The position numbers were made by a program, and so were the translations under genes. Below, one piece after another: positions 9,347 to 37,541 of a stretch of DNA of 64,000 bases (within the stretch, counting starts at the first letter, position 1; every line of letters starts with the position of its first letter). This DNA comes from Kibdelosporangium sp. MJ126-NF4 (GTDB lineage Bacteria; Actinomycetota; Actinomycetes; Mycobacteriales; Pseudonocardiaceae), in the NCBI RefSeq assembly GCF_000826545.1, contig NZ_CDME01000008.1, forward strand, positions 310,001-374,000, in the 5' to 3' direction. The notes under the pieces are model-generated. The model did no database searches. It worked only from the letters and a program-made list of their open reading frames with translations, and was not told the DNA's origin.

Positions 9347-9351
9347 CACCC

Positions 9352-19657: not shown

Positions 19658-19708
19658 CGATAAGGTTTGACCTCTGCTGGGGTAATGATTCAGAGCCCTC
19701 AGCGCCCC

Positions 19709-19714: not shown

Positions 19715-19749
19715 GGACGGCACGCCATCGGATAGGGGAGAGGTTCCGA

Positions 19750-21222
19750 ATGACGGACGGCAGCGGCGGCGACAACGGCGTTCTTTGGCCGCTTGTCCGC
19801 GCGTTGATGAGGGTAGGTTGTCTTAACGATCTGAGCAGCCGCAACCTGGTGATCAGAATACTCGGCGACGAACTCGGTGATCCGCTGACCGTCGACGAAT
19901 ACCCGCAGACCACGACACATCTGTTCAGCCTTGTCCACGCGTGCCGTCAGCGGCCGGACGGATTGGCGAAGCTCCTTGTCGTCCTCGAGCGTCTCGAGCC
20001 GGGCTCGACCGCCATGGGAGATGTTCGACGGGTGATCAGCGAAATGATCGTGTACGACACGATCTCGCCCGAGGACCGCAGACAACTGTTCACACTGCTC
20101 AGCGGGGTGGTGATCCCCGATATCGGTGACATCTACCGGTTCGTCGCCGGTGAGGCCGCACTCGATCTTCCCGAGCAGACCACTTACCAGGAGCTGTTCC
20201 GCGCGTTGGAGACGCTCAACGCAAACGTGCAGGGTATACCGAAACCGATCGTCTTCGTTGAACATCTCGCCAACAGGGTCCGGCTGGACCTCGCGGTCGA
20301 GCTGCAGCGCTGGGTCAGTGGTCAGGCCGGGAAACTGGGCCTGGAGGCCGAGTTGGTGAAGCTGCGCGAGCAGGTCGCGATGACCGCGGTGCGCAAGCCA
20401 CCGCAGCGCTCGGACGGATATGTCGTCTTCCAGATAGAACGTGCTGGTCCGAGCGGTGAGGCCTATCGCATCGCGACCTGGAAACAACTCGACGTCACCG
20501 AGGGGTGGCACCCCGAGCGAAGTGCCGACATCCATGCCGCTACCCTCTCCGAGATGCAATTCCGGGTCGCCGAGGTCATCGAGTCCGTCGAGTCGGAATG
20601 GGCCCAGTTCGAGCCGACGATCAGGCTGGAGTTCCTGCTCTCCACCGAATTGCTGAACCTGGATGTCGACCAATGGCAGTGGGAAACGGAGTCACGATTC
20701 CCCGAGCCCATGGGCTGTCGTTTTCTCGTGTCCATCCGCTCACTGGAGAGAATGAAGGCGCGGAAATGGCATCGCGCCTGGTACATCCGCTGGAAAGAAC
20801 TCAAGACGCAGGTCGACCAGAACAACGGCGTCACCCGGGGCGGCGGATATCAGAACAGGTCGAACGCGCACCAGGCGCTCCGGGAGCTTGTTGCCCATTT
20901 CGAGCGCAGTCCCGCCGTTGTCTCCCTGATTCTCAGCTCTCCGCCTGCCGGAACGACCTATACGGACGAGATATCGATCGCGCTGCGCGCCGGAATACCG
21001 ATGATCATCTGGCACCGGTCGGACTGTGACGCGGAGGAATTCGGGGCGGCGGTCGAGAACATCCTGTACGAGGCCAATGATCGGCATCTGCTCGACCGGG
21101 TGCGGCTGGTGCGCGCGAACGCCTACGCCGACGGTCTCGGCCCGCAGCACGTGGGTGGCCAGCTGACGATCTTGTGGGACGACCCGGAGCGCATGGTCAT
21201 CCCGGAGGGGGTTCCCGCATGA
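19750..21222 (+). CDS. VMAP (vWA-MoxR-associated protein), copy A
   Basis: This 490-residue protein is the core of a VMAP ternary system. Residues ~10-95 look like an effector-associated domain of the EAD2 type (LWPLVRALMRVGCLNDLSSR; HLFSLVHACRQRPDGLAKLL). A helical middle region follows. The C-terminal VMAP-C-like domain contains EFLLSTELLNLDVDQWQWE, FPEPMGCRFLVSIRSLER, and IPMIIWHRSDCDAEEF. In the family, VMAP links a MoxR-vWA NTPase pair to an effector recruited through EAD contacts (known); no effector domain is fused here. It overlaps the MoxR gene by 4 bp and is clearly homologous along its length to the copy at 28804-30300. Confidence 0.82.
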   Translation: MTDGSGGDNGVLWPLVRALMRVGCLNDLSSRNLVIRILGDELGDPLTVDEYPQTTTHLFSLVHACRQRPDGLAKLLVVLERLEPGSTAMGDVRRVISEMIVYDTISPEDRRQLFTLLSGVVIPDIGDIYRFVAGEAALDLPEQTTYQELFRALETLNANVQGIPKPIVFVEHLANRVRLDLAVELQRWVSGQAGKLGLEAELVKLREQVAMTAVRKPPQRSDGYVVFQIERAGPSGEAYRIATWKQLDVTEGWHPERSADIHAATLSEMQFRVAEVIESVESEWAQFEPTIRLEFLLSTELLNLDVDQWQWETESRFPEPMGCRFLVSIRSLERMKARKWHRAWYIRWKELKTQVDQNNGVTRGGGYQNRSNAHQALRELVAHFERSPAVVSLILSSPPAGTTYTDEISIALRAGIPMIIWHRSDCDAEEFGAAVENILYEANDRHLLDRVRLVRANAYADGLGPQHVGGQLTILWDDPERMVIPEGVPA

Positions 21223-22241
21223 CCACCCAGGACTGGCGTGTCTACACCGGGACGGGCACGCCTCGCGACGCGCCGGTGGACAGTCTGCCGAAACCTCCGC
21301 CGTGGCGGCGGTTTCCCGGTGCCGGGCGGGTGGAGCCGCGGCCGTCGGACGACGGTGGTGAGACCTCACGCCGGATCGGGCAGGCGGCCAACCGCAGGCA
21401 CTTGTCGACCGAGCACGAGGTCGCGATGGTCAACGCGGCGATCTACCTGCGCAGGCCGCTGCTGGTCACCGGTCGTCCGGGCACCGGCAAGTCGAGCCTG
21501 GCCTACCTGATCGCGTCCGAGCTCGGGCTGGGCCCGGTGCTGCGCTGGCCGATCGCGTCGCGCACGCTGCTCAAGGACGGTCTCTACTCCTACGACGCGA
21601 TCGGCAGGGTGCAGACCGCCAGCGCGCGTCCGCACGACGAACCCGACATCGGCGAGTTCATCCACCTCGGTCCGCTGGGAACAGCGCTGCTGCCCTACGA
21701 GCTGCCCCGTGTCCTCCTGGTCGATGAGTTGGACAAAGGCGACATAGACCTGCCCAACGATCTGCTGAACGCCTTCGAGGAAGGCGAGTTCCGGCTGGAC
21801 GAGCTGGTGCGGGTCAGCAAGCAGCAGCCGGAGGTCACGGTGATGACCGACGACTGGGGCGGCACTGCGGCGATCACGGGCGGCCGGGTGCAGTGCCGGT
21901 CGTTCCCGATAGTGATCATCACCAGCAACGGAGAGCGGGAGTTCCCGCCCGCCCTGCTGCGCCGGTGCCTGCAGCTGCACCTGGAACCGCCGAACGAGGA
22001 ACAACTCGGTGCGATGGTGGCGGCCCAGTTCGGCCCGACCGAAGGCGTCGACGTCGCCCGGTTGATCAGCGAGTTCCTGCAACGCAGCGACGAGCACGGC
22101 GGCTTGGCGGCCGACCAGCTGCTCAACGCCGTCCACCTGGCCGTCGAGTTGGTCACCGCGGGCGTGCACCGGCCGACCGACCCGGAGTGGACGTCGCTGC
22201 TGTCCGCGATCTGGCACCCGCTGCAGAGCAGGAGCGTCTGA
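21219..22241 (+). CDS. MoxR-type AAA+ ATPase, copy A
   Basis: The 340-residue AAA+ ATPase has Walker A GRPGTGKSSLAYLIA (from ~85), Walker B VLLVDELDKGDIDLPNDLL (~165), sensor 1 IITSNGERE, and an arginine-finger-like LLRRCLQLHL. MoxR ATPases remodel partners that carry vWA domains, and the next gene supplies such a domain. The ATG overlaps the VMAP stop (ATGA), so translation is coupled. The N-terminal ~60 residues (WRVYTGTGTPRD; LPKPPPWRRFPG) are shared with copy B and appear specific to this subgroup. The stop is 3 bp before the giant downstream gene. Confidence 0.9.
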   Translation: MTTQDWRVYTGTGTPRDAPVDSLPKPPPWRRFPGAGRVEPRPSDDGGETSRRIGQAANRRHLSTEHEVAMVNAAIYLRRPLLVTGRPGTGKSSLAYLIASELGLGPVLRWPIASRTLLKDGLYSYDAIGRVQTASARPHDEPDIGEFIHLGPLGTALLPYELPRVLLVDELDKGDIDLPNDLLNAFEEGEFRLDELVRVSKQQPEVTVMTDDWGGTAAITGGRVQCRSFPIVIITSNGEREFPPALLRRCLQLHLEPPNEEQLGAMVAAQFGPTEGVDVARLISEFLQRSDEHGGLAADQLLNAVHLAVELVTAGVHRPTDPEWTSLLSAIWHPLQSRSV

Positions 22242-22244
22242 CTC

Positions 22245-25200
22245 GTGAGTGCTCTGCCGTCCGACGAGCCACCAGGCCGGGAGCCCGGCCTGATGTGGCA
22301 GGTGGCGGCAGGGCCACGGCCAACCGACCTGACCTGGTCGGAACTGCGCGATATCTGGTGGCTGGTGCGGTGCGTCTACCGGGAGCCCCCGGAAGCGCCA
22401 CCTGCCGAGATCCCGCCGGTGGACGACGTCCCGAGAATTCCCGAAAGCAAACCTCCGGAGCGGTCGCCGTCCACGCCCGAGGCGCCACCGGAAAACGCGC
22501 AGCCCAAACGAAAACAGCCGGAAGCCGCCGAGCAATGGACGCCCCGTCAACGGGGAGCGCTTCGCCAAACGCTGGCGGACACCACGCGAGCAACGGCACC
22601 ACTGGGATGGCCGGGAGTTCCCGCGCTGCGCAATCCCCGTGCGATCGAACAAGCCTTGCGCCCGTTGACAAGGCGCGTGCCATCCCCCTGGCGAAAGGTG
22701 CTCGACGAGGAGGCGACCGCCCGCAGGGCGGCTGAGGAGAGGATCTGGCTGCCCGAGTGGCAACCCGCGCCGTGGCGAAAATTCGAGCTCATGCTGATTG
22801 TCGACTCGAGCCCGACACTGGCCATCTGGCGGAACACGATCGACGAGTTCACCGGGATCCTCGGCCACATCGGCGCCTTCCGCCAGATCCGCACCTACCG
22901 CACGGACTTCTCACGGCCGAAGGACCTGACTCTGTCGGTGGACGGCACGGGCGCGCAGCGGTCGTGGCGGGACGTCGTCGACCCGACCGGGCGGCGGGTG
23001 GTCCTGGTGATCACGGACGCCATCGGACCGGCATGGCGCACAGGCGCGGCAGAACACCGGATCGCCGAACTGGCGACCGGAATGCCCACAGCCATCGTCA
23101 ACGTGCTCTCCGACCGGCTGTGGAGCTGGGGTGGCCTCTCCCCGCATCGGGCGCACCTCTCGTCCCCGACGCCGGGTGCGGCGAACAGAATGCTGCGCGT
23201 CGAGCCGGAACCCCACGACGCGATCGCGGTCCCTGTCCTGGCCATGTCCCCGGAGTGGCTGGCGGGCTGGGCGACGCTGGTGGCGGGCGGGGCGACCGAG
23301 ACGACGGCGATCCACGTCAGCCCGGCCTGGCCGGTGGAAGCCTCCTATCCCAAGGCGATAGCCGAGCCCTACCTCGCCGCTCGTGAGAGAGTGCTGCGGT
23401 TCAAGACCTACGCGTCGACCCGAGCCTTCCACCTGGCGTGCCTCCTGGCGGCGGCGCCCTTGAACCTGCCGATCATGCGACTCGTCGAACAAGTGATGCT
23501 GGACGGCTCCGACATGTCGACGGTGGCCGAGGTCCTGCTCGGCGGAATAGTGAAGGAAACCCCGGTGCTTCGCCTGGTCGACGACCCGGCAGCGATAGCG
23601 TACGAATTCTATGACGGCGTCCGTGAAGAACTGCTGTCCATGGGCACTCGCGTGGACACGGTCCGCGTTGCCCGAGTGGTGAGCGACGCCTTCGGTGCGG
23701 CCGTACCCATTCTCAAGAGCCTCCGAAACGCGATCGATTTCCCGGCGACCGCGCCACAACCAGTGGTGACAGACCAGAATATGCCTTACCTGAAAATCGA
23801 GGCCGCAGTCTTGTCTGCCATTTCCGGAGGCCCGTACACCAAGCGATCTCGATCGCTCACGAACAGGTTAAATGAGCACACTAATGGGGGATCTCATGAG
23901 CGTGTCGAGCCGGCATTCGCCCAGACCGGCGCTGAGGATGCAGCGTCAAGCCGTAGTGGCACAAGTATTAGCAGCGGGAGAATCGAGTCGATGAGAACAG
24001 CCTCCGTGGAGGGTGAGATGAGTGTTTCCGAAACTCCCAGGACTGAACCACGACAAGGGGCTGGCCTTCGACCGCAAATCTGGGGAAACGTGCCATTGCG
24101 TAACCCGGACTTCGTCGGCAGGACGGAACTACTCGACAAACTGCAGGAACGACTGCTCGAGCCGGACAACCGTGCTACGGCGGTACTGCCGGAAGCGTTG
24201 CACGGGATGGGCGGTGTCGGCAAGTCGCAGACTGTCGTCGAGTACATCTATCGGCACAGCACCGAGTACGACATCATCTGGTGGATTCCGTCGGAGCAGT
24301 TGTCCCAGATCAACGCCAGCTTCGTCGAACTGGCCAGGAAGCTCGGCCTGCCGAGCAGTTCGGCGGACACGGCCCGGCCCGAGGTCATCGAGGCGCTGCG
24401 CAAGGGCAGCCCGTACCAGCGCTGGCTGCTGGTCTTCGACAACGCCGAACACCCGGACGTGGTCAGCCCGTTCATCCCGGCCAGTTCCGGCCATGTGATC
24501 GTCACCTCGCGAAACCCGGACTGGGCCGGTGTGGCCCGCACGGTCGAGGTGGACCTGTTCACGCGCAAGGAAAGCATCGACCTGCTCCGCATGCGTGGTG
24601 GCGAGATCACCGACGAGGACGCCGACCGCCTGGCCGAGGCACTCGGTGACCTGCCACTGGCAGTCGAGCAGGCCGCGGCATGGCGTGGTCAGACGGGCAT
24701 GCCCGTCAATGAGTACCTGACGCTCCTCGACCGGCACCTGACCGATCTTCTCGGCGACGAACGCGCTGCCGAATACGGTGCTCTCGGGTACCAACGGTCG
24801 GTCGCGGCGGCGTGGAACGTTCCGCTGCACCGACTGCGCACCTCACACCCGGCCGCGCTGCAACTGCTCCAGGTCTGCGCGTTCTTCGGACCGGAGCCGA
24901 TCGCGAGAAGCCTCTTCACCGGTGGCCGATCCGTTCCCGTGCCGCCGGAACTGGCCAACGCGCTGCGTGATCCCATCAAACTCAACCGGGCGATCCGCGA
25001 GATCAGCCGCTACAGCCTCGCCAAGATCGACCACCGCAACAACACCATCCAGTTGCACCGGTTGGTTCAGACGGTTCTGAAGAACCAGCTGTCCGAGAAA
25101 GATCAGGGCGAGATGCGGCACGCGGTGCACGTGCTGCTCGTCAACGGCGACCCGGACGACCCGGTGTCGACCGACTCGTGGCCGCGTTACGCGGACCTGT

Positions 25201-26570
25201 TGCCCCACGCGACGATGTCGAAAGCCGTGGAGTGCCAGTCCGACGCGTGGGTACGCAGGCTGATCATCAACCTGGTCCGCTACCTGGTCAGTATCGGTGA
25301 CTACCAGGTCGCGCTCTCGTATGCCCGTGAGTCGATGGACCAGTGGACGCTCGCTTTCGGCGAGACCCACGAGGACACCCTGTTGATGGCGTCCCAGCGA
25401 AGCATCGCGCTTCGGCGAATCGGCGAGTACGACGAATCGTTCGAGTTGATCGAGGAGACGTACAAGCGCGTTCAGGAGACGTACGGCGAGGACAGTGAGC
25501 TGTACCTGAGCGTCGCGGACACCTTGCGCAGTGGTTTGCGCGTTCAGGGACGATTCGTCCAAGAGCTGCAGATGCAGGAGAACATCGTCGAGAAGTCGAG
25601 GCACGTACTCGGCGACGACGACCCGGCCACGCTCCGCTACGCCAACAACCTGGCGGGCAGTCTCCGGTTGAACGGCCAGTTCTTCCGGGCGAAGGAAGTC
25701 GACCAGGACACCGGAGAGCGCAAGAAGGTCGTCCTCGGTGACGAACACGGGGCCACGTTCCTCACCTTGAACGGCCTTGCGATGGACCTGCGCGAGTGCG
25801 GCGAGTACGTCGAAGCGTGCCGGGTCCAGGAATACAACCTGACCCGCCAGCGTGCGGTCATGGGTGACGATCACCCGAGCACGATCGGGGCGATGCGGAA
25901 TCTGGCAGTCTCTCGACGCAAGGCAGGACTGCACCAGGAAGCGCGCGAGCTGTCCGAGGACTGTGTACGGCTGTACCGTCTCCGCTACGGCGACAAGCAC
26001 CTCGACACCATCACCGCCGAAATGGGCCTGTCAGCCGACTTGCGCGTCCTCGGTGATCTTCCGCAGTCCGAGAGCCTGGGAGCGCACAGCTACCAGCTCT
26101 TCGTGGAGACGCACGGACAGCAGCATCCGTTCACACTGGTGGCCGCGATCAACCTGGCGATCACCACCCGGTTGATGAAGCGCGCGGCCGAGGCCAGGGA
26201 CGCGAATCGGCGAACCCTGGAGTCGTTGCACCAGGTCTTCGGCAAGGACCATCCGTTCGCCCTGGTGTGCGCGACGAACCTGGCAAGTGACCTTGCCGCA
26301 CTGGGGGACGCGGCCGCCGCGCACGCGATGGACGTGGACACCCGCGATCGTTCCATTCAGGTACTCGGCGAGAAGCACCCGTCGACACTCGCCGTCGCCC
26401 TGAACCTGTCCATCGACCTGGATGCCTTGGGGAAGAAGGAGGAGGCGGCCAAACTGCACGCGGCCACGGTCACCCTGTTCCGCAGCACCCTCGGCCCGGA
26501 CCACCCGGCCACGCTGGCCGCCGACCAGTCGATCAGGGCGAACTGCGACACGGACACGATGCAGCTCTAG
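22245..26570 (+). CDS. SAV_2336/vWA-like-NB-ARC-TPR giant protein (FxsT-like), copy A
   Basis: This 1441-residue protein fuses two modules. The first (~120-540) is the SAV_2336-type region with a vWA-like core (WRKFELMLIVDSSPTLA ... RRVVLVITDAIGPAW), the expected partner of the MoxR ATPase. A low-complexity Ser/Glu-rich linker (~540-600) follows. The second module is an NB-ARC STAND ATPase (LHGMGGVGKSQTVVEYIY, P-loop ~655; WLLVFDNAEHPD; LGDLPLAVEQAA). About ten TPR units follow (GDDHPSTIGAMRNLAVSRR type). The second module matches the FxSxx-COOH-system TPR protein family. GTG 22245 lies 3 bp after the MoxR stop. The linker holds an in-frame ATG with a strong ribosome-binding site. The stop lies 1 bp from the convergent hydroxylase stop. 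Confidence 0.85.
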   Translation: MSALPSDEPPGREPGLMWQVAAGPRPTDLTWSELRDIWWLVRCVYREPPEAPPAEIPPVDDVPRIPESKPPERSPSTPEAPPENAQPKRKQPEAAEQWTPRQRGALRQTLADTTRATAPLGWPGVPALRNPRAIEQALRPLTRRVPSPWRKVLDEEATARRAAEERIWLPEWQPAPWRKFELMLIVDSSPTLAIWRNTIDEFTGILGHIGAFRQIRTYRTDFSRPKDLTLSVDGTGAQRSWRDVVDPTGRRVVLVITDAIGPAWRTGAAEHRIAELATGMPTAIVNVLSDRLWSWGGLSPHRAHLSSPTPGAANRMLRVEPEPHDAIAVPVLAMSPEWLAGWATLVAGGATETTAIHVSPAWPVEASYPKAIAEPYLAARERVLRFKTYASTRAFHLACLLAAAPLNLPIMRLVEQVMLDGSDMSTVAEVLLGGIVKETPVLRLVDDPAAIAYEFYDGVREELLSMGTRVDTVRVARVVSDAFGAAVPILKSLRNAIDFPATAPQPVVTDQNMPYLKIEAAVLSAISGGPYTKRSRSLTNRLNEHTNGGSHERVEPAFAQTGAEDAASSRSGTSISSGRIESMRTASVEGEMSVSETPRTEPRQGAGLRPQIWGNVPLRNPDFVGRTELLDKLQERLLEPDNRATAVLPEALHGMGGVGKSQTVVEYIYRHSTEYDIIWWIPSEQLSQINASFVELARKLGLPSSSADTARPEVIEALRKGSPYQRWLLVFDNAEHPDVVSPFIPASSGHVIVTSRNPDWAGVARTVEVDLFTRKESIDLLRMRGGEITDEDADRLAEALGDLPLAVEQAAAWRGQTGMPVNEYLTLLDRHLTDLLGDERAAEYGALGYQRSVAAAWNVPLHRLRTSHPAALQLLQVCAFFGPEPIARSLFTGGRSVPVPPELANALRDPIKLNRAIREISRYSLAKIDHRNNTIQLHRLVQTVLKNQLSEKDQGEMRHAVHVLLVNGDPDDPVSTDSWPRYADLLPHATMSKAVECQSDAWVRRLIINLVRYLVSIGDYQVALSYARESMDQWTLAFGETHEDTLLMASQRSIALRRIGEYDESFELIEETYKRVQETYGEDSELYLSVADTLRSGLRVQGRFVQELQMQENIVEKSRHVLGDDDPATLRYANNLAGSLRLNGQFFRAKEVDQDTGERKKVVLGDEHGATFLTLNGLAMDLRECGEYVEACRVQEYNLTRQRAVMGDDHPSTIGAMRNLAVSRRKAGLHQEARELSEDCVRLYRLRYGDKHLDTITAEMGLSADLRVLGDLPQSESLGAHSYQLFVETHGQQHPFTLVAAINLAITTRLMKRAAEARDANRRTLESLHQVFGKDHPFALVCATNLASDLAALGDAAAAHAMDVDTRDRSIQVLGEKHPSTLAVALNLSIDLDALGKKEEAAKLHAATVTLFRSTLGPDHPATLAADQSIRANCDTDTMQL
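24008..24020 (+). promoter_or_regulatory. Internal ribosome-binding site and in-frame start in the linker
   Basis: GGAGGG (24008-24013) lies 4 nt before an in-frame ATG at 24018, exactly in the linker between the vWA-like and NB-ARC modules. Initiation here would yield a free ~850-residue NB-ARC-TPR protein. Copy B lacks an ATG at this point. Confidence 0.5.
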
Positions 26571-26571
26571 C

Positions 26572-28380: not shown

Positions 28381-28402
28381 GGTTGCCCGCCCGAATGTCG
28401 AC

Positions 28403-28756: not shown

Positions 28757-28803
28757 AATATTGTCCGCATAACCGTGACAACGGCGACTCCTCAGGGGGC
28801 GAT

Positions 28804-30300
28804 GTGGCGGAGGGCGGTGACGTCATACCGGCACGCGGACCTCTTTGGCCCTTGGTGCGTGCGCTCCTGCGGGTTGGCTGCCTTGCCGATTTGAACGGCC
28901 GCAACCTTGTCGTCAGAATCGTGTCCGACGAGCTGGGGCATCCGCTGCTCGCCGAGGAGCACCCGCAGTGCGCTGCTCATTTGTTCAGTATCGTCGAGAC
29001 CTGTCACCATCGGCCGGACGGGTTGTCGACATTGTTGTTCGTTCTCGAACAGATCGAACCGGGCACGCGGGCCATCGCCGAGGTACGTCGGATCATCACC
29101 GAGATGTCGACTCTGGAGGCGTGGTCGCCGAGTGAGCGGCGCCAGCTTTTCGGTCTGCTGTCCGGTGTCGTCGTTCCCGACATCGCACAGATCTACCGGT
29201 TCGTCGCGGGGACGAATGCGCCGCAGTTGCGGATGCAGACCACTTATTCCGAGGTCTTCCTGGCGTTGGAAACGCTCAACGCCGGTCCGGACGGCGTGCC
29301 GAAACCTCTGATCTTCGTCGAGCACCTCGCCGCCCGCGTCCGGTCGGATCTCGCGGTGGAGCTGCGACGATGGGTGGACGACCAGTCGGTGCGGATGGGG
29401 ATCGTCGCCGAGCTGGCCGCTGTCCGGACAACGATCACCGGCCGGGTCCCGGACGAATCCGGCCAGCCGGTGTCGCCCGCGTACATCGTCTTCCAGTTGC
29501 AACGAGAAGCGCCGACAACCGAACTGTATCGGCTTTCGCATTGGCGGCAGCGTGACCTGTCCGCAGGGTGGTACCCGAAACGAGGGCCCGACCTCGTCGG
29601 CAAGCTCGGCGACATCAAACACGCGGTCGCGTCGCTCGTGGAGGGCGTCGAAAGCGACTGGGCGCCGTACGACTCGGATATCCGCGTCGAGTTCGTGTTG
29701 CCGAGGGAACTGCTCAACCTCGACGTCGACCAGTGGCAGTGGGAGGCGGAGAGTGATTTCCCCGAACCCATGGGCTGCCATTTTCCGGTCTGTGTGCGCA
29801 GTCTGGAGCGGATGGCGGCCCGCAAATGGCACCGCCAGTGGTACATCCGATGGAAGCAGCTCAAGAACCGGGTCATCGACAAAGGCGTGCTCACGCCGGA
29901 GGCCGGGTTTTGGAGCAAACCGGGCGGTGAGCTGAACCTGCGGCAGCTGACCTCCTATTTCGAACGCATGTCCGGCGTTGTCGCGCAGGTGCTCGGCGCG
30001 CCGCCCGCGGCAGGGCCGTCGACGTTCGACGAGGTCGCGGTCGGCCTGCGGGCAGGCATCCCGGTGATGGTGTGGCACCGCGAGAACTGCGGTCTCGAGG
30101 ACTTCGTCGCGACCGCGAAGGAACTGCTGCACACCGAGGACCCCGGGCTGCTGCTCGACCGGGTCCGACTGGTCCGGACCAATGCCTTCGCAAGTGACAC
30201 GCAGAACCCGCACGTCGGCAGTTACCTGACGGTGTTGTGGGACGACCCCGAACGGGTCGTGGTCCCGGAACGTCCGGGACCACCCGAGGAGGTGGACTGA
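28804..30300 (+). CDS. VMAP (vWA-MoxR-associated protein), copy B
   Basis: This 498-residue protein is homologous to copy A at 19750-21222. It has an EAD2-like N-terminus (PLWPLVRALLRVGCLADLNGR; HLFSIVETCHHRPDGLS), a helical middle, and a VMAP-C-like end (EFVLPRELLNLDVDQWQWE; EPMGCHFPVCVRSLERM; IPVMVWHRENCG). The start is GTG 28804, chosen because the protein then aligns with copy A from the first residues. It is divergent from precursor A and 2 bp upstream of its MoxR gene. Conservation is strongest in the VMAP-C part and the EAD. The middle region has diverged, which argues for an old duplication rather than a recent one. Confidence 0.82.
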   Translation: MAEGGDVIPARGPLWPLVRALLRVGCLADLNGRNLVVRIVSDELGHPLLAEEHPQCAAHLFSIVETCHHRPDGLSTLLFVLEQIEPGTRAIAEVRRIITEMSTLEAWSPSERRQLFGLLSGVVVPDIAQIYRFVAGTNAPQLRMQTTYSEVFLALETLNAGPDGVPKPLIFVEHLAARVRSDLAVELRRWVDDQSVRMGIVAELAAVRTTITGRVPDESGQPVSPAYIVFQLQREAPTTELYRLSHWRQRDLSAGWYPKRGPDLVGKLGDIKHAVASLVEGVESDWAPYDSDIRVEFVLPRELLNLDVDQWQWEAESDFPEPMGCHFPVCVRSLERMAARKWHRQWYIRWKQLKNRVIDKGVLTPEAGFWSKPGGELNLRQLTSYFERMSGVVAQVLGAPPAAGPSTFDEVAVGLRAGIPVMVWHRENCGLEDFVATAKELLHTEDPGLLLDRVRLVRTNAFASDTQNPHVGSYLTVLWDDPERVVVPERPGPPEEVD

Positions 30301-30302
30301 CC

Positions 30303-31313
30303 GTGGACTGGCGCATTTACCGCGGAACCGGGCAAGCGGCCCCGGCGCCCATCACGGCGCTGCCGCAACCACCGCCGTGGCGCCGGTTCACCGGTGTCGG
30401 CGTCGTCACGAGGCCGACCGGCGACAGCGGGGAGACCGCACGCAGGATCGGCGCCGCCACCGGTCGGCGCCATCTCTCGACACCGCACGAGATCTCGATG
30501 GTGAACGCGGCGCTCTACCTGCGCAGGCCACTGCTGGTGACGGGCAGGCCGGGCACCGGCAAGTCCAGCCTCGCGTACCTGATCGCGACCGAGCTCGGGC
30601 TCGGTCCGGTCCTGCGGTGGGGTATCACCAGCCGGACCACGCTGACTGAGGGGCTGTACAACTACGACGCGATCGGGCGCGTCCAGGCGGCGGGGTCACG
30701 GCCCGACCGCGAACCGGACATCGGTGACTTCGTGCATCTCGGCGCGCTGGGGACCGCGCTGCTGCCGTACGAGATCCCGCGTGTGCTGCTGGTCGACGAG
30801 TTGGACAAGGGCGACATCGACCTGCCGAACGACCTGCTGAGCGTCTTCGAGGACGGTGAGTACGAGGTTCCCGAACTGGTCAGGATCGCCAAACAGCAGC
30901 CCGAGGTGACCGTCTTCACCCACGACAAACGGGGAAGCGCGGTGATCAACGACGGGTGGGTGCAGTGCCGGGCCTTCCCGGTCGTCATCATCACGAGCAA
31001 CGGAGAACGCGAGTTCCCCGCGGCCTTCCTGCGCCGATGTCTGCAGCTGCACCTCAGTCCGCCGGACTCCGACCAGCTGGCCGCGATGGTCGCGGCCCAG
31101 TTCGGTGTGGTGGAACGAGTCGACGTCGCCCGGCTGATCAGCGAGTTCCTCGAACGCAGCGAAGCCGTCGGCGGGCTGGCTGCCGACCAGCTGCTCAACG
31201 CCGTGCACATGGCGATCGAACTGGCGACATCCGGCGCGTACCAGCCGGACGACGAGTGGTACGAGCTGATGCGGGCGATCTGGCACCCCCTGTCGACAGC
31301 GGAGCCCGGATGA
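30303..31313 (+). CDS. MoxR-type AAA+ ATPase, copy B
   Basis: A 336-residue AAA+ ATPase with Walker A GRPGTGKSSLAYLIATELG, Walker B VLLVDELDKGDIDLPNDLL, sensor 1 IITSNGEREFP, and LRRCLQLHLSPPD. It shares with copy A the N-terminal WRIYRGTG and QPPPWRRFTG segments. GTG 30303 gives a start matching copy A (V/M-D-W-R); it lies 2 bp after the VMAP-B stop. Its own stop overlaps the giant gene by 4 bp (ATGA). Role as in copy A: NTP-driven remodelling of the vWA-like partner (family knowledge), here probably in a separate complex. Confidence 0.9.
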   Translation: MDWRIYRGTGQAAPAPITALPQPPPWRRFTGVGVVTRPTGDSGETARRIGAATGRRHLSTPHEISMVNAALYLRRPLLVTGRPGTGKSSLAYLIATELGLGPVLRWGITSRTTLTEGLYNYDAIGRVQAAGSRPDREPDIGDFVHLGALGTALLPYEIPRVLLVDELDKGDIDLPNDLLSVFEDGEYEVPELVRIAKQQPEVTVFTHDKRGSAVINDGWVQCRAFPVVIITSNGEREFPAAFLRRCLQLHLSPPDSDQLAAMVAAQFGVVERVDVARLISEFLERSEAVGGLAADQLLNAVHMAIELATSGAYQPDDEWYELMRAIWHPLSTAEPG

Positions 31314-34300
31314 GCACGGCCAAGGAGCCCGCCAGGGACCACCCCGCCAGAGAAGAAACCGGGCCACCACGACTGCGCACAGGTGACCTGACCGCGATGG
31401 AGATGATGGACGCGCTCTGGCTGGCCAGGGTGATCAGCGAGCACGAGGACACCGACCCGCTGGAGCCGTCGGCTGAGGACCCTCGCCCGCCCACAACGGA
31501 CACACCCGGCGTCATCCCGGCCGATCGACCGAATCCCACTGTGTCACCGGTGGAATCGGACACGGAGCTGTCGTGGTCGACGCGGTACGCCAGGTCCGGC
31601 GACAGCGCGTTCACCGGCCCACCGGCCCGCGTCGGACTCGCGGGCCGGGAGCTGCAGCAGGCGGCGAAACTGGCGAGGGCGTTGCGGCCGTTGATGAAAC
31701 GGTCCCCGTCGCCGTGGAAGCACGAACTCAACGAGGAAGCGACAGCCATCAGGGCTGCGCAGGACGGGATGTGGCTGCCCGTCTGGGATCCGGCGCCGTG
31801 GCGGCGTTTTGAACTGGTGCTCGTTGTGGACAGTGCGCCGTCGATGGACGTCTGGCGGGAGACTGTCGACGAGTTCAGGCAACTGATGCAGCAACAAGGT
31901 GCCTTCCGCAACGTGCGCAAGCTCCTGGTCGACTGCTCGGCACCGGAGCTGTCCCTGCGTGTCGAAGGGCCGGCGGGTGCGATGCAGAGCACGCGGCACC
32001 TGGTGGACCCGACCGGACGACGCCTGGTCCTGGTGATGACCGACGCGATCGCCAGCGCGTGGCACGACGGCTCGGCCGAACGTGTGCTTGTTCGGTGGGC
32101 GAGCCGGATGCCGTTGGCGATCATCAACGTCCTGCCGTCCCGGCTGTGGAGCTGGAGCGGGCTGTCGCCCCGCCGGGTTTGCCTGTCGGCCAGTGCTTTG
32201 GGCGTGGCCAACCGGGAACTGCGGGTGCGCCGGATCGAGCACGACATCTTCGACGACGAGGTGCCCGACGGCTCGATCCCTGTGCCGGTCCTCGCACTGA
32301 CGCCGGAGTGGCTGTCCGGCTGGGCGAACCTGTTCGCGGCATCCGGATCGGCCTCGGTGTGGACCACCGCCGTCATGCTGAACCCCCGCGGCACGCGGAG
32401 AATCGTGGATCCGGTCGAGAAGGACGGGAAACGGTCGGCGTACGACCGGGTGATGCGTTTCCGGACATACGCGTCGGTCCCGGCGTTCCAGCTCGCGGGC
32501 CTGCTGGCAGCGGCTCCGCTGAACCTGGCGATGATGCGTTTCGTGCAACGGGAACTCCTGCCGGACACGGACGTTTCCACGTTGGCCGAAGTACTCCTCG
32601 GCCATCTGCTGCGCAAGGTCAGGACAACACGGTCGGTGCACGACCCGACCGCGGTGGTCTTCGAATTCCACGACGGTGTAAGGGAAGAACTGCTGTCGGG
32701 AACCCGGCGGGCAGACACTGTCCGCGTGGCACGGGTGCTCGGCGACTACCTGGGCTCGAGTGTGGCGATCCTGCGGAACTTCCGTGACGCGGTCGACGAC
32801 CCGGACAGCACCGCGCTGCCGGAGGTCTCCCCGGACACGATGCCGTACCTGCGTGTCCAGGAAGCAGTTTTCCGTGCACTGTCGGGAAGATACGCACCCA
32901 GAGCGGCGGGCCTGCGGCGGGACCTGCGCGGCGCGCGACTGTGGGCTCACGCCCGCAGCGACCGCGTCAACGATCTCGCTCGCGCCCCACGAGGCTTCGA
33001 GCAGCCGACCGACACACCCACGGCGGATGCCGACCACCGGGCACAGGTCTGGGGATCGGTCCCGATGCGTTACCGCGACTTCGTCGGCCGCGACAGCCTG
33101 CTGCGGGTGCTGGCGGAGAAGCTGGCGTCGCCCGGCGTGACTGCCGTGCTGCCCGAGGCGTTGCAGGGTATGGGAGGCGTCGGCAAGTCGCAGACCGTGA
33201 TCGAGTTCATCTACCGGCACGCGGACGAGTACGACGTGGTCTGGTGGATCCCGGCCGAGCAGATGTCCCAGATCACGGCGAGTTTCGTCGAGCTGGCCAA
33301 GCGCTTGGGACTGCCGGCGAGCTCGGCGGAGGTCGCGATCACGGAAGTGCGCGAAAGCCTGCGGCTCGGCCAGCCGCTGGATCGCTGGCTGCTGGTGTTC
33401 GACAACGCGGGTAGCCCGGACAGCGTGCAGCCCTTCTTCCCGACGGGATCCGGCCACATCATCGTCACCTCACGGGACATGCGCTGGGCCGACGTGGCGA
33501 ACGTGGTCGAAGTCGACCTCTTCACCCGTGAGGAGAGCATCGAGATGCTGCGCCGAATCGGCGGCGACATCAGTGAGGCGGATGCCGATCGGCTGGCCGA
33601 GGCGTTGGGCGACCTGCCATTGGCCGTCGACCAGGCCGCCGTGTGGCGCGCCCGGACAGGCATGCCCGCCGCCGAGTATCTCGAGCTGCTGCACGGATAT
33701 CTGACTGACCTTCCCGACGACGAGCCTGGTGAGTTCGGCGTGATGCGGTCGGTCGCGGCGGCGTGGAGCGTACCGCTGCACCACTTGCGCACCGAGTTTC
33801 CCGCAGCGTTGCAACTGTTGCAGGTGTGTGCCTACTTCGGACCGGAACCCATTCCGCGGAGTCTGTTCGTCGGCGAGTTCGACGCACCGGCTCCGGAGGC
33901 CCTCGCCGAGGCGATGGCCGAACCCGCCATCCTGGAAAGAGCCATCCTCGAGATCAGTCGCTACGGTCTCGCCAAAGTGGACTGGCAAGCCAATACGTTG
34001 CAGTACCACCGGCTGGTCCAGGCGGTCATCAAGAACCAGCTCTCCGAGGAGGAACGGGAGCGGCTCAAACACGTCGTCCATGTCCTGCTCGTGCTCAACG
34101 ATCCCGACGACCCGGTCTCACCACGCACATGGGGACTGTACGGTGCCCTGCTTCCGCACGCGATGATGTCGGACGCGGTCGCGTGTGTGAAGGATCCGCG
34201 TGTCCGCCAGTTGATGATCAACCTGGTGACGTACCTGGTACGCAGCGGAGACTATCGAGCCGCTTACGACGTGGCGCAGCAGACGACGGTCATGTGGCGG

Positions 34301-35521
34301 CGGGTGTACTCCGAGGCTGACCCGGACACGTTGGAGATGGCCAGGCAGTGCGGACTCGCGCTGTGGCGCCTCGGCCGCTACGAGGAAGCGGACGCCCTCA
34401 ACCGCGAGACGTTCCAGACGGTCCTGCGCGAGTTCGGTGACGACAACAAGCTCTTCCTGAGTGTGGCCAACACGTTGCGAGCGAGCATGCGAGCGCAGGG
34501 GCGGTTCTCGGAGGAACTGACCATGCAGCGAACCATTTTCGACAAGGCGTGCCAGGTCCTCGGTCAGAACAATCCAGCGACCCTGCAGTACGCGAACAAC
34601 CTCGCGGCCTGTTTTCGGCTCAATGGCGAGTTCTTCAAGGCGCGTGAGCTGGACGAGGACACCTGGCGGCGTAAGAAGGACGTGCTCGGTGCGGACCACG
34701 CCGACACCTTCCTGACCTTGAACGCGTTGGCGATGGACATGCGGGAGTGCGGAGAGCACATCCGCGCGTGTCGTGTCCAGGAGGAGAACCTGGCCAGGCA
34801 GCTGGAGATCATCGGGCAGGATCATCCCCGAACGCTCGGCGCGATGCGGAACCTGGCTGTGGCACGGAGAAAAGCCGGTCTTTACCGAAAAGCCGCCGAG
34901 CTCTCCGAGTCCTGCGTCGGTACCTATCGCCGCCTGCACGGCGCTCGGCACCTGGACACCATCACCGCGCAGATGTGTCTGTCCATCGATCTGCGGTACC
35001 TGAAAAGCCTGCCCGAATCCCGCGAGTTGGGTGAGCTCAGCCATCGCCTGTTCGTCGAGACACACGGTGAGCGGCATCCGTTCACGCTGGTGGCCGCCAT
35101 CAATCTCGCTGTCGTGTCGCGACTGCTCGGCAGGCTGGCGGAGGCAAGGGAGCTCGATGAGAGGACTCGCGCGGCCCTTCGGGAGATCTTTGGTGACGAT
35201 CACCCGTTCACCTTGGTGAGCGCCACGAACTTGGCGAGCAACCTGGCGGACGTCGGTGAGTGGGCGGCGGCGTGTGACCTCGATACCGACACACTTGCCA
35301 GATCGACGCGTGTTCTCGGTGCTCAGCACCCGTCCACGCTGAGCGTCGCGTTGAACCTCTCGATCGACCTCGCCCATCTGGGAAAGCACGACGCGGCGGC
35401 GGCTCGGCATGCCCATGCGCTGACGGGTTTCCGGAAGGCGCTCGGTCGCGAGCACCCGGTGACGTTGTCCGCGCTCGAGTCGGCCAGGATCGACTGCGAC
35501 ACCGACACCATGCAACTCTAG
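31310..35521 (+). CDS. SAV_2336/vWA-like-NB-ARC-TPR giant protein (FxsT-like), copy B
   Basis: This 1403-residue paralogue of the giant copy-A protein has the same order. A vWA-like SAV_2336 region (WRRFELVLVVDSAPSMDVW; RRLVLVMTDAIASAW) comes first. A short linker follows, then an NB-ARC ATPase (LQGMGGVGKSQTVIEFIY, ~620; WLLVFDNAGSPD; LGDLPLAVDQAA). TPRs run to the end. Both proteins finish in DCDTDTMQL, an identical C-terminal nonapeptide and probably a functional tail. The start is ATG 31310 (MSTAKEPARD), overlapping the MoxR stop. The inter-module linker is shorter than in copy A and lacks the internal start. The stop lies 6 bp from the convergent hydroxylase B stop. Confidence 0.85.
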   Translation: MSTAKEPARDHPAREETGPPRLRTGDLTAMEMMDALWLARVISEHEDTDPLEPSAEDPRPPTTDTPGVIPADRPNPTVSPVESDTELSWSTRYARSGDSAFTGPPARVGLAGRELQQAAKLARALRPLMKRSPSPWKHELNEEATAIRAAQDGMWLPVWDPAPWRRFELVLVVDSAPSMDVWRETVDEFRQLMQQQGAFRNVRKLLVDCSAPELSLRVEGPAGAMQSTRHLVDPTGRRLVLVMTDAIASAWHDGSAERVLVRWASRMPLAIINVLPSRLWSWSGLSPRRVCLSASALGVANRELRVRRIEHDIFDDEVPDGSIPVPVLALTPEWLSGWANLFAASGSASVWTTAVMLNPRGTRRIVDPVEKDGKRSAYDRVMRFRTYASVPAFQLAGLLAAAPLNLAMMRFVQRELLPDTDVSTLAEVLLGHLLRKVRTTRSVHDPTAVVFEFHDGVREELLSGTRRADTVRVARVLGDYLGSSVAILRNFRDAVDDPDSTALPEVSPDTMPYLRVQEAVFRALSGRYAPRAAGLRRDLRGARLWAHARSDRVNDLARAPRGFEQPTDTPTADADHRAQVWGSVPMRYRDFVGRDSLLRVLAEKLASPGVTAVLPEALQGMGGVGKSQTVIEFIYRHADEYDVVWWIPAEQMSQITASFVELAKRLGLPASSAEVAITEVRESLRLGQPLDRWLLVFDNAGSPDSVQPFFPTGSGHIIVTSRDMRWADVANVVEVDLFTREESIEMLRRIGGDISEADADRLAEALGDLPLAVDQAAVWRARTGMPAAEYLELLHGYLTDLPDDEPGEFGVMRSVAAAWSVPLHHLRTEFPAALQLLQVCAYFGPEPIPRSLFVGEFDAPAPEALAEAMAEPAILERAILEISRYGLAKVDWQANTLQYHRLVQAVIKNQLSEEERERLKHVVHVLLVLNDPDDPVSPRTWGLYGALLPHAMMSDAVACVKDPRVRQLMINLVTYLVRSGDYRAAYDVAQQTTVMWRRVYSEADPDTLEMARQCGLALWRLGRYEEADALNRETFQTVLREFGDDNKLFLSVANTLRASMRAQGRFSEELTMQRTIFDKACQVLGQNNPATLQYANNLAACFRLNGEFFKARELDEDTWRRKKDVLGADHADTFLTLNALAMDMRECGEHIRACRVQEENLARQLEIIGQDHPRTLGAMRNLAVARRKAGLYRKAAELSESCVGTYRRLHGARHLDTITAQMCLSIDLRYLKSLPESRELGELSHRLFVETHGERHPFTLVAAINLAVVSRLLGRLAEARELDERTRAALREIFGDDHPFTLVSATNLASNLADVGEWAAACDLDTDTLARSTRVLGAQHPSTLSVALNLSIDLAHLGKHDAAAARHAHALTGFRKALGREHPVTLSALESARIDCDTDTMQL

Positions 35522-35527
35522 GTTTGT

Positions 35528-37294
35528 CTAGGTTTGTCCGGCCCTGTCCAGCCAGGCCGCCAGCTCGATCGGATCCGGGTGTCCGAGCAGGCAGTCGTAC
35601 AAATCGACAACGGTCTCGGGACTGGTCCGCAGAACGCCCTTGGCGGACGTTGGCGCTGTGAGCGCCAGCCCTGCCCACGCGTGCGTGTCGGTGCGTGCGA
35701 GCCTGACCCTGTTGAGGTAGCCAGACCTGGCCGTCTCGTAGTCGCCCGACACGAACGCGAGGTCGGACGCGTCCGCCGTCGTGGTCAGCCTGCTGTACAG
35801 CGCGGGATCGGTGGCAGCCGCCTTGAGCAACGCGTTGCGAGCGGTCGATGACTGCTTGCGGTGGAAGGGCCTGATCAAGCCTTTCGTGCGTGCTGCTGGT
35901 GCTCGCTCGTTCCCGCGCCACGCGTCGGCGAGCTGCCGGATGTAGGCGTCGTCCGGCTGGACATGTCGCAGCCGCCACGTCAGCCAGTGATCCTTTTCGA
36001 TCAGCGCGACCGTTTCGGTGAGCTCGGCGGACACCGCGTCACGTTCGCATGCCGCCAGACGGTCGGACACCGCGGCGACCAGTTGCGCGCCGGCCTCCGT
36101 CAGCTCTGACGCGGACGCGAGGGCGTCGACAGCCGTACGCACCTGCAGACGCCGGTAGGCGAACGCGAAGTCACCTTCCGGCGAGGTGCTCGCGTCAGCC
36201 GCGTGGTGACGCTGGTCGCGCCAGAACTCCACAACACTCACGAAGGCGTAGATGCCGTGGAGCAAGCCGACCAACGGCCGAGGATCGGCCCGCCACGGGG
36301 CGTACCACCATCTCTCCGCGTGTTCCTGGCGGAGTGGGACGAGTTCGAGCACGGCGTTCAGCTTCGAGTGCTGCAGTTCGTGGATCAGGACTTCGGCGAG
36401 GGCGGCACCGGATTCCTTCGGACTCAACGCCACCGCGCCGAAAGCAGGATTCGACGACGAACCTGTGAAGCCCTGTTTCCCGCGGACCGGCGCGACTGCC
36501 ACCAGGCCCGCGGACAGTTCTTCGGCGTAACCTCGGTGTCGCTGGGTGAGCACGTTCCACGCGCGGTCGAAGAGGTCGTTCCAGTCGTCCCACTCGGCCG
36601 TGCTCAACGGGTCGGGTTTGTCCGGGTTGGCGAACTCGCGGTACGGACTGTGGTCGTCGATCTCGACACGCAGATCGATGCCGCACGCGCTGGCCCGGTG
36701 GTGGCGGGCCGGAAGGAATCCCGGACTCGCCGTGCCGACGCTGATCTGGATCGGCTCGATGTCGTTGCCGAAATGGAGGGAGGTTTCCCCCGGTTCGACG
36801 CGCAGTTCAGCGAAGTCGTTCGCCGAACGCGCCGGAACTCGCGCATGGCCGACGGTCGGCAGCGAGACGGTGCCGTGGATGACCGGGACGAGCAGTCGGC
36901 AGGGATGCCCGGCCCTGATCGCGGCTGCGGCCGCGACACAACGCAGGTAGTGCGCTTCCTGGAGATCGCCGCTGCCGAGCAGCGCACGCAGTGTCCTGAC
37001 CAGCCACACGCCTGTCGACGGATGCATGAGCAGGCTCTCGACGACGTCAGGAGCGAGTTCGTCCAATGCCGTGAGCAGGCCCCAAGCCTGCTCCATCCTC
37101 AGCTCCGCGGCCTCGGGATGCGACGAGGACCGGCTCATGACTGCGAGCAGCAACGCACGTCGCTGACTGTGAACACTGGCCCGCAGCAAGAGCATCGACT
37201 GTTCGGTGATCGCTCCGGAAACGAACTCGGCGAGGAAATCACGAGGCAGCCGATGCGTGACGGCATCGCCGAGAAATGAGCGAATGCCTGGCAT
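35528..37294 (-). CDS. HExxH-motif putative peptide beta-hydroxylase, copy B
   Basis: The 588-residue paralogue of copy A has HELQH at residues 305-309 (EVLIHELQHSKLNAVLEL). Shared landmarks are PVIHGTVSLPTVGHA, LPARHHRASACGIDLRVEI, and the C-terminal YLNRVRLARTDTHAWAGLAL. The conserved segment DPRPL(V/S)GLLHG after the metal motif is present in both copies. It is predicted to act on the peptide encoded 52 nt upstream. It converges on the giant copy-B gene. The pairing of each hydroxylase with its nearest peptide is inferred from gene order only. Confidence 0.75.
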   Translation of the reverse strand: MPGIRSFLGDAVTHRLPRDFLAEFVSGAITEQSMLLLRASVHSQRRALLLAVMSRSSSHPEAAELRMEQAWGLLTALDELAPDVVESLLMHPSTGVWLVRTLRALLGSGDLQEAHYLRCVAAAAAIRAGHPCRLLVPVIHGTVSLPTVGHARVPARSANDFAELRVEPGETSLHFGNDIEPIQISVGTASPGFLPARHHRASACGIDLRVEIDDHSPYREFANPDKPDPLSTAEWDDWNDLFDRAWNVLTQRHRGYAEELSAGLVAVAPVRGKQGFTGSSSNPAFGAVALSPKESGAALAEVLIHELQHSKLNAVLELVPLRQEHAERWWYAPWRADPRPLVGLLHGIYAFVSVVEFWRDQRHHAADASTSPEGDFAFAYRRLQVRTAVDALASASELTEAGAQLVAAVSDRLAACERDAVSAELTETVALIEKDHWLTWRLRHVQPDDAYIRQLADAWRGNERAPAARTKGLIRPFHRKQSSTARNALLKAAATDPALYSRLTTTADASDLAFVSGDYETARSGYLNRVRLARTDTHAWAGLALTAPTSAKGVLRTSPETVVDLYDCLLGHPDPIELAAWLDRAGQT

Positions 37295-37346
37295 GAGTCC
37301 AGCCTTTCACCGTGGATCCAGCGCATGCTGTTCGGAACAGGGTTTG

Positions 37347-37541
37347 TTACTCGTCCTGTACCTGAATCATGATGGCCTCGCGGCCGGAGGCGTAGTCGAG
37401 CGCCCATTCGATGGCAGCGTCGACACTGGCCTGTGGTTCGCCTGCGCGCAGATCGCCCAGCAGGAATGAGGTCAGGTCAACCACGTGGGAACTGACCTCA
37501 GTTGTCGGGCTTCCCGCCACGTAAACCTGCCTTCTGCTCAT
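37347..37541 (-). CDS. Candidate RiPP precursor peptide B
   Basis: A 64-residue peptide whose body (SSHVVDLTSFLLGDLRAG, then AAIEWALDYASGREA) parallels precursor A, including the DLT and LR landmarks. It ends IMIQVQDE, matching the IQVQ-acidic end of precursor A. ATG 37541 has a weak ribosome-binding site; an in-frame GTG about 20 nt later is preceded by AGAAGGCAGG and is a good alternative. It lies 52 nt upstream of hydroxylase B on the same strand and is divergent from a small membrane-protein gene. Confidence 0.6.
   Translation of the reverse strand: MSRRQVYVAGSPTTEVSSHVVDLTSFLLGDLRAGEPQASVDAAIEWALDYASGREAIMIQVQDE

Follow-up and report, generated by a model that had tools for sequence, protein, structure and literature searches.

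Organization of the Locus

The window considered here, a 64,000-nucleotide stretch of Kibdelosporangium sp. MJ126-NF4 (contig NZ_CDME01000008.1, positions 310,001 to 374,000), carries two cassettes (19750-28576 and 28804-37541) of a VMAP-ternary system, each reading VMAP, MoxR and a giant SAV_2336/NB-ARC/TPR protein, followed by a convergent HExxH gene with a small peptide gene upstream of it. Such a five-gene set probably makes a small oxidised peptide together with a large immune-receptor-like machine that reads it. Ten frames were translated, all at the positions given in an earlier note on this DNA, and the translations and profile matches bear out the same gene order in both cassettes. 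Both VMAPs match EAD2, VMAP-M0 and VMAP-C above the Pfam cut-offs, as do both MoxR proteins AAA_5 and both giants NB-ARC and TPRs; each giant (henceforth the receptor) is a protein of ~1400 residues with an N-terminal SAV_2336 domain, NB-ARC, DUF7779 and TPRs. In cassettes 1 and 2, respectively, the receptors score 373 and 393 bits against NF041121 (cut-off 200) and 878 and 838 bits against NF040586 (cut-off 300), and the HExxH proteins score 146 and 154 bits against TIGR04267 (cut-off 40). The VMAP, MoxR, SAV_2336, NB-ARC and HExxH families are all above cut-off in both cassettes, and the fixed order of the EAD2/VMAP-M0/VMAP-C, AAA_5 and NF041121 matches upholds the assignment to VMAP-ternary systems. 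PADLOC returned merely weak AAA matches, for the two MoxR proteins. The features are as follows (ORF, open reading frame):

19750..21222, plus strand: cassette 1 VMAP (EAD2, VMAP-M0, VMAP-C); PF19956, PF19916 and PF20028 above cut-off
21219..22241 (ORF open from 21174), plus strand: cassette 1 MoxR AAA+ ATPase; AAA_5 above cut-off, motifs WRVYTG and PPWRRF
22245..26570, plus strand: cassette 1 SAV_2336 (vWA-type)-NB-ARC-DUF7779-TPR protein; NF041121, NF040586, NB-ARC, DUF7779, TPR_10/12
26544..26567, plus strand: cassette 1 receptor C-terminal tail CDTDTMQL-COOH, from comparison of receptor ends
26572..28380, minus strand: cassette 1 aKG-HExxH-type hydroxylase, HEFQH at 27448-27462; TIGR04267 145.7 bits, structure model
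28403..28576 (ORF open to 28642), minus strand: cassette 1 precursor peptide, 57 aa, end IQVQGEDG; leader profile, alignment, dN/dS
28418..28426, minus strand: QxQ core of the cassette 1 peptide (Q73 and Q75 of the 79-aa ORF); invariant columns
28804..30300, plus strand: cassette 2 VMAP; EAD2, VMAP-M0 and VMAP-C above cut-off
30303..31313 (ORF open from 30237), plus strand: cassette 2 MoxR AAA+ ATPase; AAA_5, motifs WRIYRG and PPWRRF
31310..35521 (ORF open from 30956), plus strand: cassette 2 SAV_2336-NB-ARC-TPR protein; NF041121 393 bits, NF040586 838 bits
35495..35518, plus strand: cassette 2 receptor C-terminal tail CDTDTMQL-COOH, from comparison of receptor ends
35528..37294, minus strand: cassette 2 aKG-HExxH-type hydroxylase, HELQH at 36368-36382; TIGR04267 154.2 bits
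37347..37541, minus strand: cassette 2 precursor peptide, 64 aa, end IQVQDE; leader profile, alignment, dN/dS
37356..37364, minus strand: QxQ core of the cassette 2 peptide (Q60 and Q62); invariant columns

As had been claimed, the members are homologous between cassettes and yet well diverged, with identities of 54% (VMAP), 71% (MoxR), 56% (giant), 42% (HExxH) and 29% (peptide). Several starts were corrected. The cassette 1 peptide probably begins at 28576 (57 aa), because a GGGGAGG, seen by eye and presumably a Shine-Dalgarno sequence, lies ahead of the ATG and because relatives are recorded at 56-57 aa, with one at 72; the other corrected starts are those of MoxR, at 21219 and near 30303, and of the second giant, at 31310.

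Survey of Relatives

Relatives were gathered in two ways. A public-genome scan with both HExxH proteins provided the best 80 of 183 relatives (78 loci), and the 390 genomes in the same family as G001 (the nearest named relative's genome) were searched for the HExxH protein at E ≤ 1e-20 (at most three candidates scored per genome) and for NF040586 at E ≤ 1e-60. From the listed rows, 60 regions were picked by hand, mostly best-scoring and tandem ones and thus no random sample. The collection comprises 148 HExxH ORFs in 139 loci; dropping nine with identical last 300 residues leaves 139 distinct enzymes, 130 of them with a peptide, and the window's two cassettes are included in all peptide and enzyme counts.

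Among the 390 genomes, an HExxH match occurs in 147 and an NF040586 match in 190, and 146 of the 147 HExxH genomes have both (one has HExxH only, 44 NF040586 only and 199 neither, with relatedness ignored). More specifically, the whole trio of VMAP, MoxR and receptor stands beside 40 of 42 HExxH genes of the QxQ type defined below, the window's two included, so that peptide, hydroxylase and trio are found together in other genomes, as the earlier note had suggested surveying. The same 40 of 42 bears on the idea that the peptide is an exported signal or toxin, that is, a ribosomally synthesized and post-translationally modified peptide (RiPP) whose maturation unit is loosely coupled to the trio. 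A toxin or signal is what Kaur et al. suggest in the portions of PMC7159879 considered, the pfl cluster has transporters (PMC12636437, in part), and the window holds an ATP-binding cassette (ABC) gene (2533-3234) and a major facilitator superfamily (MFS) gene (42134-43396) farther off. However, no transporter or peptidase family appears among the Pfam-scanned frames of 13133-40749, a subset of the frames there, and the most hydrophobic 15 residues of the two peptides average merely 1.11 and 0.96 on the Kyte-Doolittle scale, the only gauge of export applied; with the trio so regularly alongside, export is very unlikely.

The Precursor Peptide and Its QxQ Core

The window peptides alone match no family in NCBIfam and Pfam scans. 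A leader profile, grown from 15 seeds and the upstream matches of these same loci and hence partly circular, detects a peptide immediately ahead of 139 of the 148 HExxH ORFs, in the same orientation, and none on the antisense strand; chance ORFs were rejected as an explanation on these grounds and because the ratio of nonsynonymous to synonymous substitution rates (dN/dS) is below 1. Five more leader-profile matches lie elsewhere in loci L018, L021, L045, L052 and L062, none with a strict FxSxx end and four with a Phe near the end. Three of the nine HExxH ORFs for which no peptide was found were inspected: L018 has an FxsB radical SAM gene above cut-off just upstream, and L020 and L029 have cut FxsB frames at the upstream position. 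FxsB (TIGR04269) is above cut-off in none of G001, G002, G219, G220 and G149, and was found in G003, G065 and G364 at places away from the loci; in the window itself, CxxxCxxC occurs in two of 146 frames of at least 200 aa, neither of them radical-SAM-like by eye. The absence of a radical SAM partner claimed beforehand was therefore confirmed by motif and eye in the window and by search in G001, G002 and G219, the relatives with both cassettes.

The 130 peptides fall into 42 QxQ, 67 RxD/RxE-like, four GGHxS and 17 other cores. The QxQ count was 41 under the first pattern and became 42 once R was allowed before Q, which adds cassette 1 of L002; the peptides of L153, L157 and L159 (LVHERCD) were classed as RxD/E by pattern and kept, though their enzymes are without HExxH and no trio was found nearby. 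In 11 aligned Q-type precursors, the invariant columns are a leader D, a leader L and both Gln of QxQ, with no others. Of 130 precursors, 42 have the motif [VILR]QxQ in their final 24 residues, compared with a mean of 2.5 and a maximum of 8 in tail shuffles (2000 each), a test that overstates the enrichment since the motif was picked after inspection and the rows are related. Core type tracks the HExxH enzyme tree, on which QxQ needs three changes, against a shuffled mean of 36.

The ends had been described as IQVQ plus acidic residues and as different from FxSxx. The difference stands, as does the IQVQ in both peptides: they end in IQVQGEDG and IQVQDE, not in FxSxx, and do not match TIGR04268 at E ≤ 0.1. 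The core is better written as [VI]QxQ followed by 1-15 variable residues; a run of four contiguous acidic residues is absent from the last 30 residues of every precursor, and an acidic-type core was rejected for this reason. Over the first 30 positions of TIGR04268 there are sub-cut-off matches, at E 1.4e-4 and 4.2e-4, to the leaders of two Q-type relatives. Judged by sequence, the precursor thus has a leader akin to those of FxSxx precursors and a core outside the published types.

A database search with the Q-type alignment returned 57 protein clusters, among them the two from the window. All 57 have a Gln followed by Q, E or D at +2, with QxQ in 53, although the query was itself QxQ and the result is not independent. 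Some of these relatives carry the database label FXSXX-COOH protein or PF27839 (the Pfam scan made here gave no PF27839 match for such proteins), and QxQ precursors are in part already catalogued.

The HExxH Enzyme

A model of the cassette 1 HExxH protein (P0004), built from 44 relatives, has a mean predicted local distance difference test (pLDDT) score of 93. In Foldseek it retrieves SjiH (22ob, E 6e-21, with a TM of 0.87 normalised by target length) and, from ChlBHExxH, the HExxH domain (8s5f, E ~1e-8), and nothing besides SjiH and ChlH at E ≤ 0.001; sequence profiles agree with this kinship. Of 139 distinct relatives, 136 retain the HExxH motif and 132 have RxDxR no more than 60 residues beyond it, a feature common to the window family and ChlH. 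The exceptions L153, L157 and L159, which lack the motif and have no trio detected nearby, are probably decayed or repurposed copies. Membership in the peptide hydroxylase family, as predicted earlier, is well founded on TIGR04267 above cut-off, on HEFQH and HELQH and on the SjiH/ChlH fold, from which the activity itself is predicted. In a side observation, a single trio in the 14 kb region of L166 is accompanied by two HExxH genes (7990-12050), each paired with a separate peptide.

According to the parts of PMC13060819 considered, relatives of the enzyme hydroxylate His, Asp, Phe, Gln and Pro; similarly, PflC and PosC hydroxylate runs of Gln, with oxidative cleavage at a following ARMD and hydrolytic cleavage without leader (PMC12636437, in part). 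Given the ChlH/SjiH fold and relatives' substrates that include Gln, a standalone hydroxylase acting on QxQ appears plausible, and a simple peptidase less so. The latter is the published reading (Kaur et al. 2020, PMC7159879, in part): cleavage of the precursor by the HExxH protein, taken as a zincin peptidase, would release a C-terminal peptide. The hydrolytic cleavage of a leaderless peptide by PflC (PMC12636437) would agree with this reading. Nevertheless, no solved structure comes closer than those of SjiH and ChlH, and the ChlH entry is described as an aKG-dependent oxygenase; NCBIfam names TIGR04267 aKG-HExxH-type peptide beta-hydroxylase, and RxDxR after HExxH is common with ChlH; a zincin is accordingly held to be unlikely. 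An intermediate course, oxidation followed by a PflC-like backbone cut near QxQ that leaves a C-terminal amide, would make the residues after QxQ a removed follower. The Gln hydroxylation and oxidative cleavage by PflC/PosC and the 1-15 residues after QxQ speak for it; no motif is kept after QxQ (by eye), whereas ARMD is the recognition motif of PflC, with a preference for a small residue at the cleavage site (PMC12636437, in part), and this course, too, is improbable.

The Receptor and Its C-Terminal Tail

The SAV_2336 region matches NF041121 strongly, yet no VWA Pfam model at E ≤ 0.1 and no vWA structure in the PDB by profile; when the SAV_2336 and VMAP alignments were searched as profiles against the PDB, only weak rows came back. 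Residues resembling a metal-ion-dependent adhesion site (MIDAS) are, as judged by eye, present there.

At the other end of the protein, the last residues are nearly fixed: among 119 distinct long NB-ARC-TPR proteins, Arg stands at -11 in 117, Asp at -7 in 116 and Cys at -8 in 103, while -12 to -15 are variable. Receptors beside QxQ peptides have a TM[QE]- or PMQ-type tail in all 40 found (DTMQL in the window). Beside other peptides (n = 88) such a tail occurs in two (L011 and L143) and a loose PMPL-like pattern in 79, the tail classes having been set by pattern after inspection. As a control, 16 genomes were hand-chosen from the 44 with NF040586 and no HExxH match; 21 of their 23 complete related receptors are without a DxDxM/PP-type tail, the exceptions L191 and L206 end in LDIDLPPT, and L198, among the 21, has a faintly similar RIFCTVDII. 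The association of tail with peptide type runs along a single part of the tree and amounts to one or two events. The tail may be a binding or modification site and is a lead.

One could also suppose that the true substrate of the enzyme is this tail, CDxDxMxL-COOH, and that the small peptide is a competitor or regulator. The near-invariant end after a variable stretch (Asp -7 in 116 of 119, Arg -11 in 117 of 119), its change with peptide type and the Asp, Gln and Pro hydroxylation known in the family (PMC13060819, in part) are in accord with this. Since the tail may be a binding motif only, and the correlation with peptide type is confounded by common descent, the proposal is quite unlikely.

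Duplication and Selection

Both cassettes stand in tandem in three relatives, L001 (Actinosynnema sp. ALI-1.44), L115 (G219) and L002 (K. persicum). In a receptor tree (49 rows, quick search), cassette 1 and cassette 2 form clades with support of 100 each that are sisters at 98 inside the Q-type group. The HExxH tree alone (FastTree, with long-branch warnings) does not resolve them as sisters, so the sister relation rests on the receptor tree. The sequences indicate that the pair goes back to a single duplication that preceded the split from Kibdelosporangium persicum; with the sister clades and the common gene order, the tandem duplication asserted in the earlier note holds, and a recent one was rejected on the inter-cassette identity of 29-71% and the receptor tree. 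Other tandem pairs (L129, L162, L167 and L174) are placed elsewhere in the enzyme tree.

Between the window and the both-cassette relatives, dN/dS lies at 0.08-0.19 in MoxR and VMAP, at 0.16-0.26 in the giant, at 0.24-0.43 in the HExxH protein and at 0.22-0.61 in the peptides (0.23-0.34 in cassette 1, on the longer ORF, and 0.22-0.61 in cassette 2), as point estimates that carry no significance test, with frame overlaps left in and short peptides. By these estimates, the enzyme-peptide pair changes fastest and every part is constrained (dN/dS < 1).

VMAP, MoxR and EAD2 Partners

VMAP-C (VMAP residues 221-482) models with a CHAT/separase-like fold, and an alignment of 35 VMAPs has no Cys or His column above 60%. 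The position that a catalytic Cys would have in VMAP-C was judged by eye. The domain models like a pseudo-protease; the earlier statement that no protease is present holds as far as profile matches go, whereas the modelled fold of VMAP-C is protease-like. In the literature searched, seen in part, no published statement of VMAP-C as CHAT-like was found; confirmation of such a fold would find a place for a domain which the authors in 2020, as far as their text was covered, were unable to unify with known ones. Both VMAP-type motifs (WxhapG and PsWRxa) are present in both window MoxR proteins, the second also in 121 of 129 MoxR ORFs.

EAD2 is proposed by Kaur et al. to recruit signalling components by homotypic contact (PMC7159879, in part). 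A search for it scored 150 of 162-188 candidates in G001, G002 and G219, and 150 of 152-215 in seven other genomes. The first three have four matches each: two fall in the cassette VMAPs, and two in an adjacent pair of genes outside the cassettes, located by EAD2 matches at:

L219, 2610-6084: EAD2 gene pair
L220, 2758-6217: EAD2 gene pair
L221, 2640-6006: EAD2 gene pair

Gene A of the pair (303-323 aa) has a C-terminal EAD2 and an N-terminal part without profile match, which by eye we take to be cyclase-like, there being no Pfam or NCBIfam cyclase match. Gene B (803-858 aa) has an N-terminal EAD2 and TPRs, and the two tested score 505 and 499 bits against NF040586. In G003, G004, G065 and G149, which have Q-type cassettes, an EAD2 gene directly precedes a VMAP and is cyclase-like by eye in G004 and G149. 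Separately, a Streptomyces RxD-type locus (L030, 7256-9621), the sole Streptomyces locus scanned, has an alpha/beta hydrolase (PF12697) and a caspase-like protein (NF047832 below and EAD2 above cut-off) between receptor and peptide; a figure legend in Kaur et al. describes such hydrolase/caspase-like pairs as mutually exclusive with peptide components (PMC7159879, in part).

Neighbouring Genes

Just upstream of the cassettes, an NB-ARC-TPR gene (15039-17606, plus strand) looks inserted and outside the cassette, since the corresponding stretch is missing in L001; its N-terminus appears cyclase-like by eye, which is our assumption given no Pfam or NCBIfam cyclase match. Two plus-strand frames ahead of the first VMAP, 18311-18805 and 18863-19657, are conserved (95% and 91% to L001); the latter matches an SLT_2 transglycosylase and the former nothing, and a minus-strand ORF at 18287-19723 was rejected because of the conserved plus-strand frames. 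A DUF3817 ORF (37675-38385, plus strand) adjoins cassette 2 with no evident link, and one minus-strand ORF (39208-40749) joins a pyridoxal phosphate (PLP)-dependent decarboxylase of the ornithine/arginine/diaminopimelate (DAP) type to an S-adenosylmethionine decarboxylase domain.

Proposed Mechanism

Taken together, the cassettes can be read as a peptide-coupled VMAP-ternary system in which QxQ hydroxylation creates a ligand for the STAND receptor, with output through MoxR, VMAP and EAD2, a reading to which we give an even chance. In a first step, the HExxH enzyme with Fe(II), O2 and 2-oxoglutarate would bind the FxSxx-like leader of its own precursor and beta-hydroxylate the C-terminal QxQ core, most likely on Gln. 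The modified peptide would then stay intracellular, where the TPR array of its cognate SAV_2336-NB-ARC-TPR protein, acting as a STAND-type switch, would read it; the published closeness of the peptide genes to AP-ATPase-TPR (PMC7159879, in part) fits a peptide acting as ligand. Subsequently, the vWA-type receptor end might work with MoxR and VMAP, as is suggested by Kaur et al. 2020 and by an alternative model in PMC10907252. According to the parts of the latter considered, Kaur et al. regard VMAP as the sensor and the vWA protein as effector carrier, whereas its own proposal is the reverse, with sensors on the vWA protein and the effector on VMAP; the reverse view suits the Q-type cassettes, where the vWA-type protein carries the STAND module and TPRs, classic sensor parts. 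VMAP-C and EAD2 would recruit EAD2-bearing signalling partners, in close relatives perhaps the pair of cyclase-like-EAD2 and EAD2-TPR proteins, and the two cassettes would have been retained as separate enzyme-peptide-receptor sets after one ancient duplication.

Several points weigh against this ligand model, in addition to the limits attached above to the shuffle test and the dN/dS estimates. Four QxQ-type enzymes (L118, L136, L138 and L142) have PWLDxPR instead of PWRxDPR, and PflC is also able to cut peptide bonds (PMC12636437, in part). The second Gln is E or D in one subtype (4 of 57 proteins), so that the strictly kept Gln is the first one only. The cyclase-like part of the EAD2 pair matched no profile; moreover, G218 has the pair with no other EAD2 found (150 of 152-215 candidates scored) and no HExxH match, from which the pair may work without cassettes. 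Lastly, agreement between enzyme and receptor trees may reflect nothing more than joint transmission of the genes.

A bolder and quite improbable extension is an oxygenase-gated, NLR-like (nucleotide-binding leucine-rich-repeat-like) switch, in which the hydroxylase would modify or read the matched C-termini of peptide and STAND receptor, so that the oxidation state (O2, iron, 2-oxoglutarate) licenses or blocks assembly, with VMAP-C as pseudo-caspase partner, an EAD2-recruited cyclase-like output and two orthogonal copies. No trigger of VMAP systems is described in the literature covered, parts of papers included. A co-encoded, probably enzyme-modified peptide with a short conserved core, together with a receptor with a matching tail, would offer a direct biochemical entry to these systems, and the EAD2 partner pair a testable output.

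Comparison with Known Systems

The earlier note regarded the locus as an undescribed system, a view that had to be abandoned, because VMAP-ternary systems with an HExxH 'MPTase' and a small variable peptide were published by Kaur et al. 2020 (eLife, PMC7159879). In the portions of that paper considered, VMAP systems are widespread in multicellular bacteria, and in the RxD and acidic types, for which no radical SAM gene is mentioned there, the vWA protein bears the AP-ATPase-TPR as a fusion. The window agrees with these systems in its fixed order of VMAP, MoxR and vWA-type genes, its HExxH gene, its small variable peptide and its fused AP-ATPase-TPR; it differs in the enzyme, re-read here as a hydroxylase, in the ancient tandem pair and in a receptor tail that varies with peptide type. 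Unlike those of the published peptide-processing VMAP subclass, the window cores are QxQ and not of the FxSxx, RxD or acidic type, the comparison extending to the text and not to the source data of Kaur et al. Searches of the literature, which did not use the motif as a term and covered PMC7159879 in part, without its source data, found no published account of the QxQ core or the receptor tail.

Among peptides, the FxSxx-COOH cyclophane RiPP precursors (TIGR04268) are alike in the leader, as seen in the sub-cut-off matches of two Q-type relatives, whereas the window has neither an FxSxx end nor an FxsB radical SAM alongside. The RxD-type peptides of Streptomyces and Amycolatopsis VMAP systems have the same leader profile and the same position before HExxH, but end in RAE, RAD, RVD or RID, and their receptor tail is mostly PMPL-like where that of the window is TMQL. 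Among enzymes, ChlH, SjiH, PflC/PosC, PesO and BpmH belong to the same HExxH family and fold; in contrast, the window enzyme adjoins a STAND/MoxR machine, and its predicted substrate is QxQ. The kind of system is therefore known since 2020, and the additions made here are the QxQ core, the matched receptor tail, the old pair, the modelled VMAP-C fold and the EAD2 partner.

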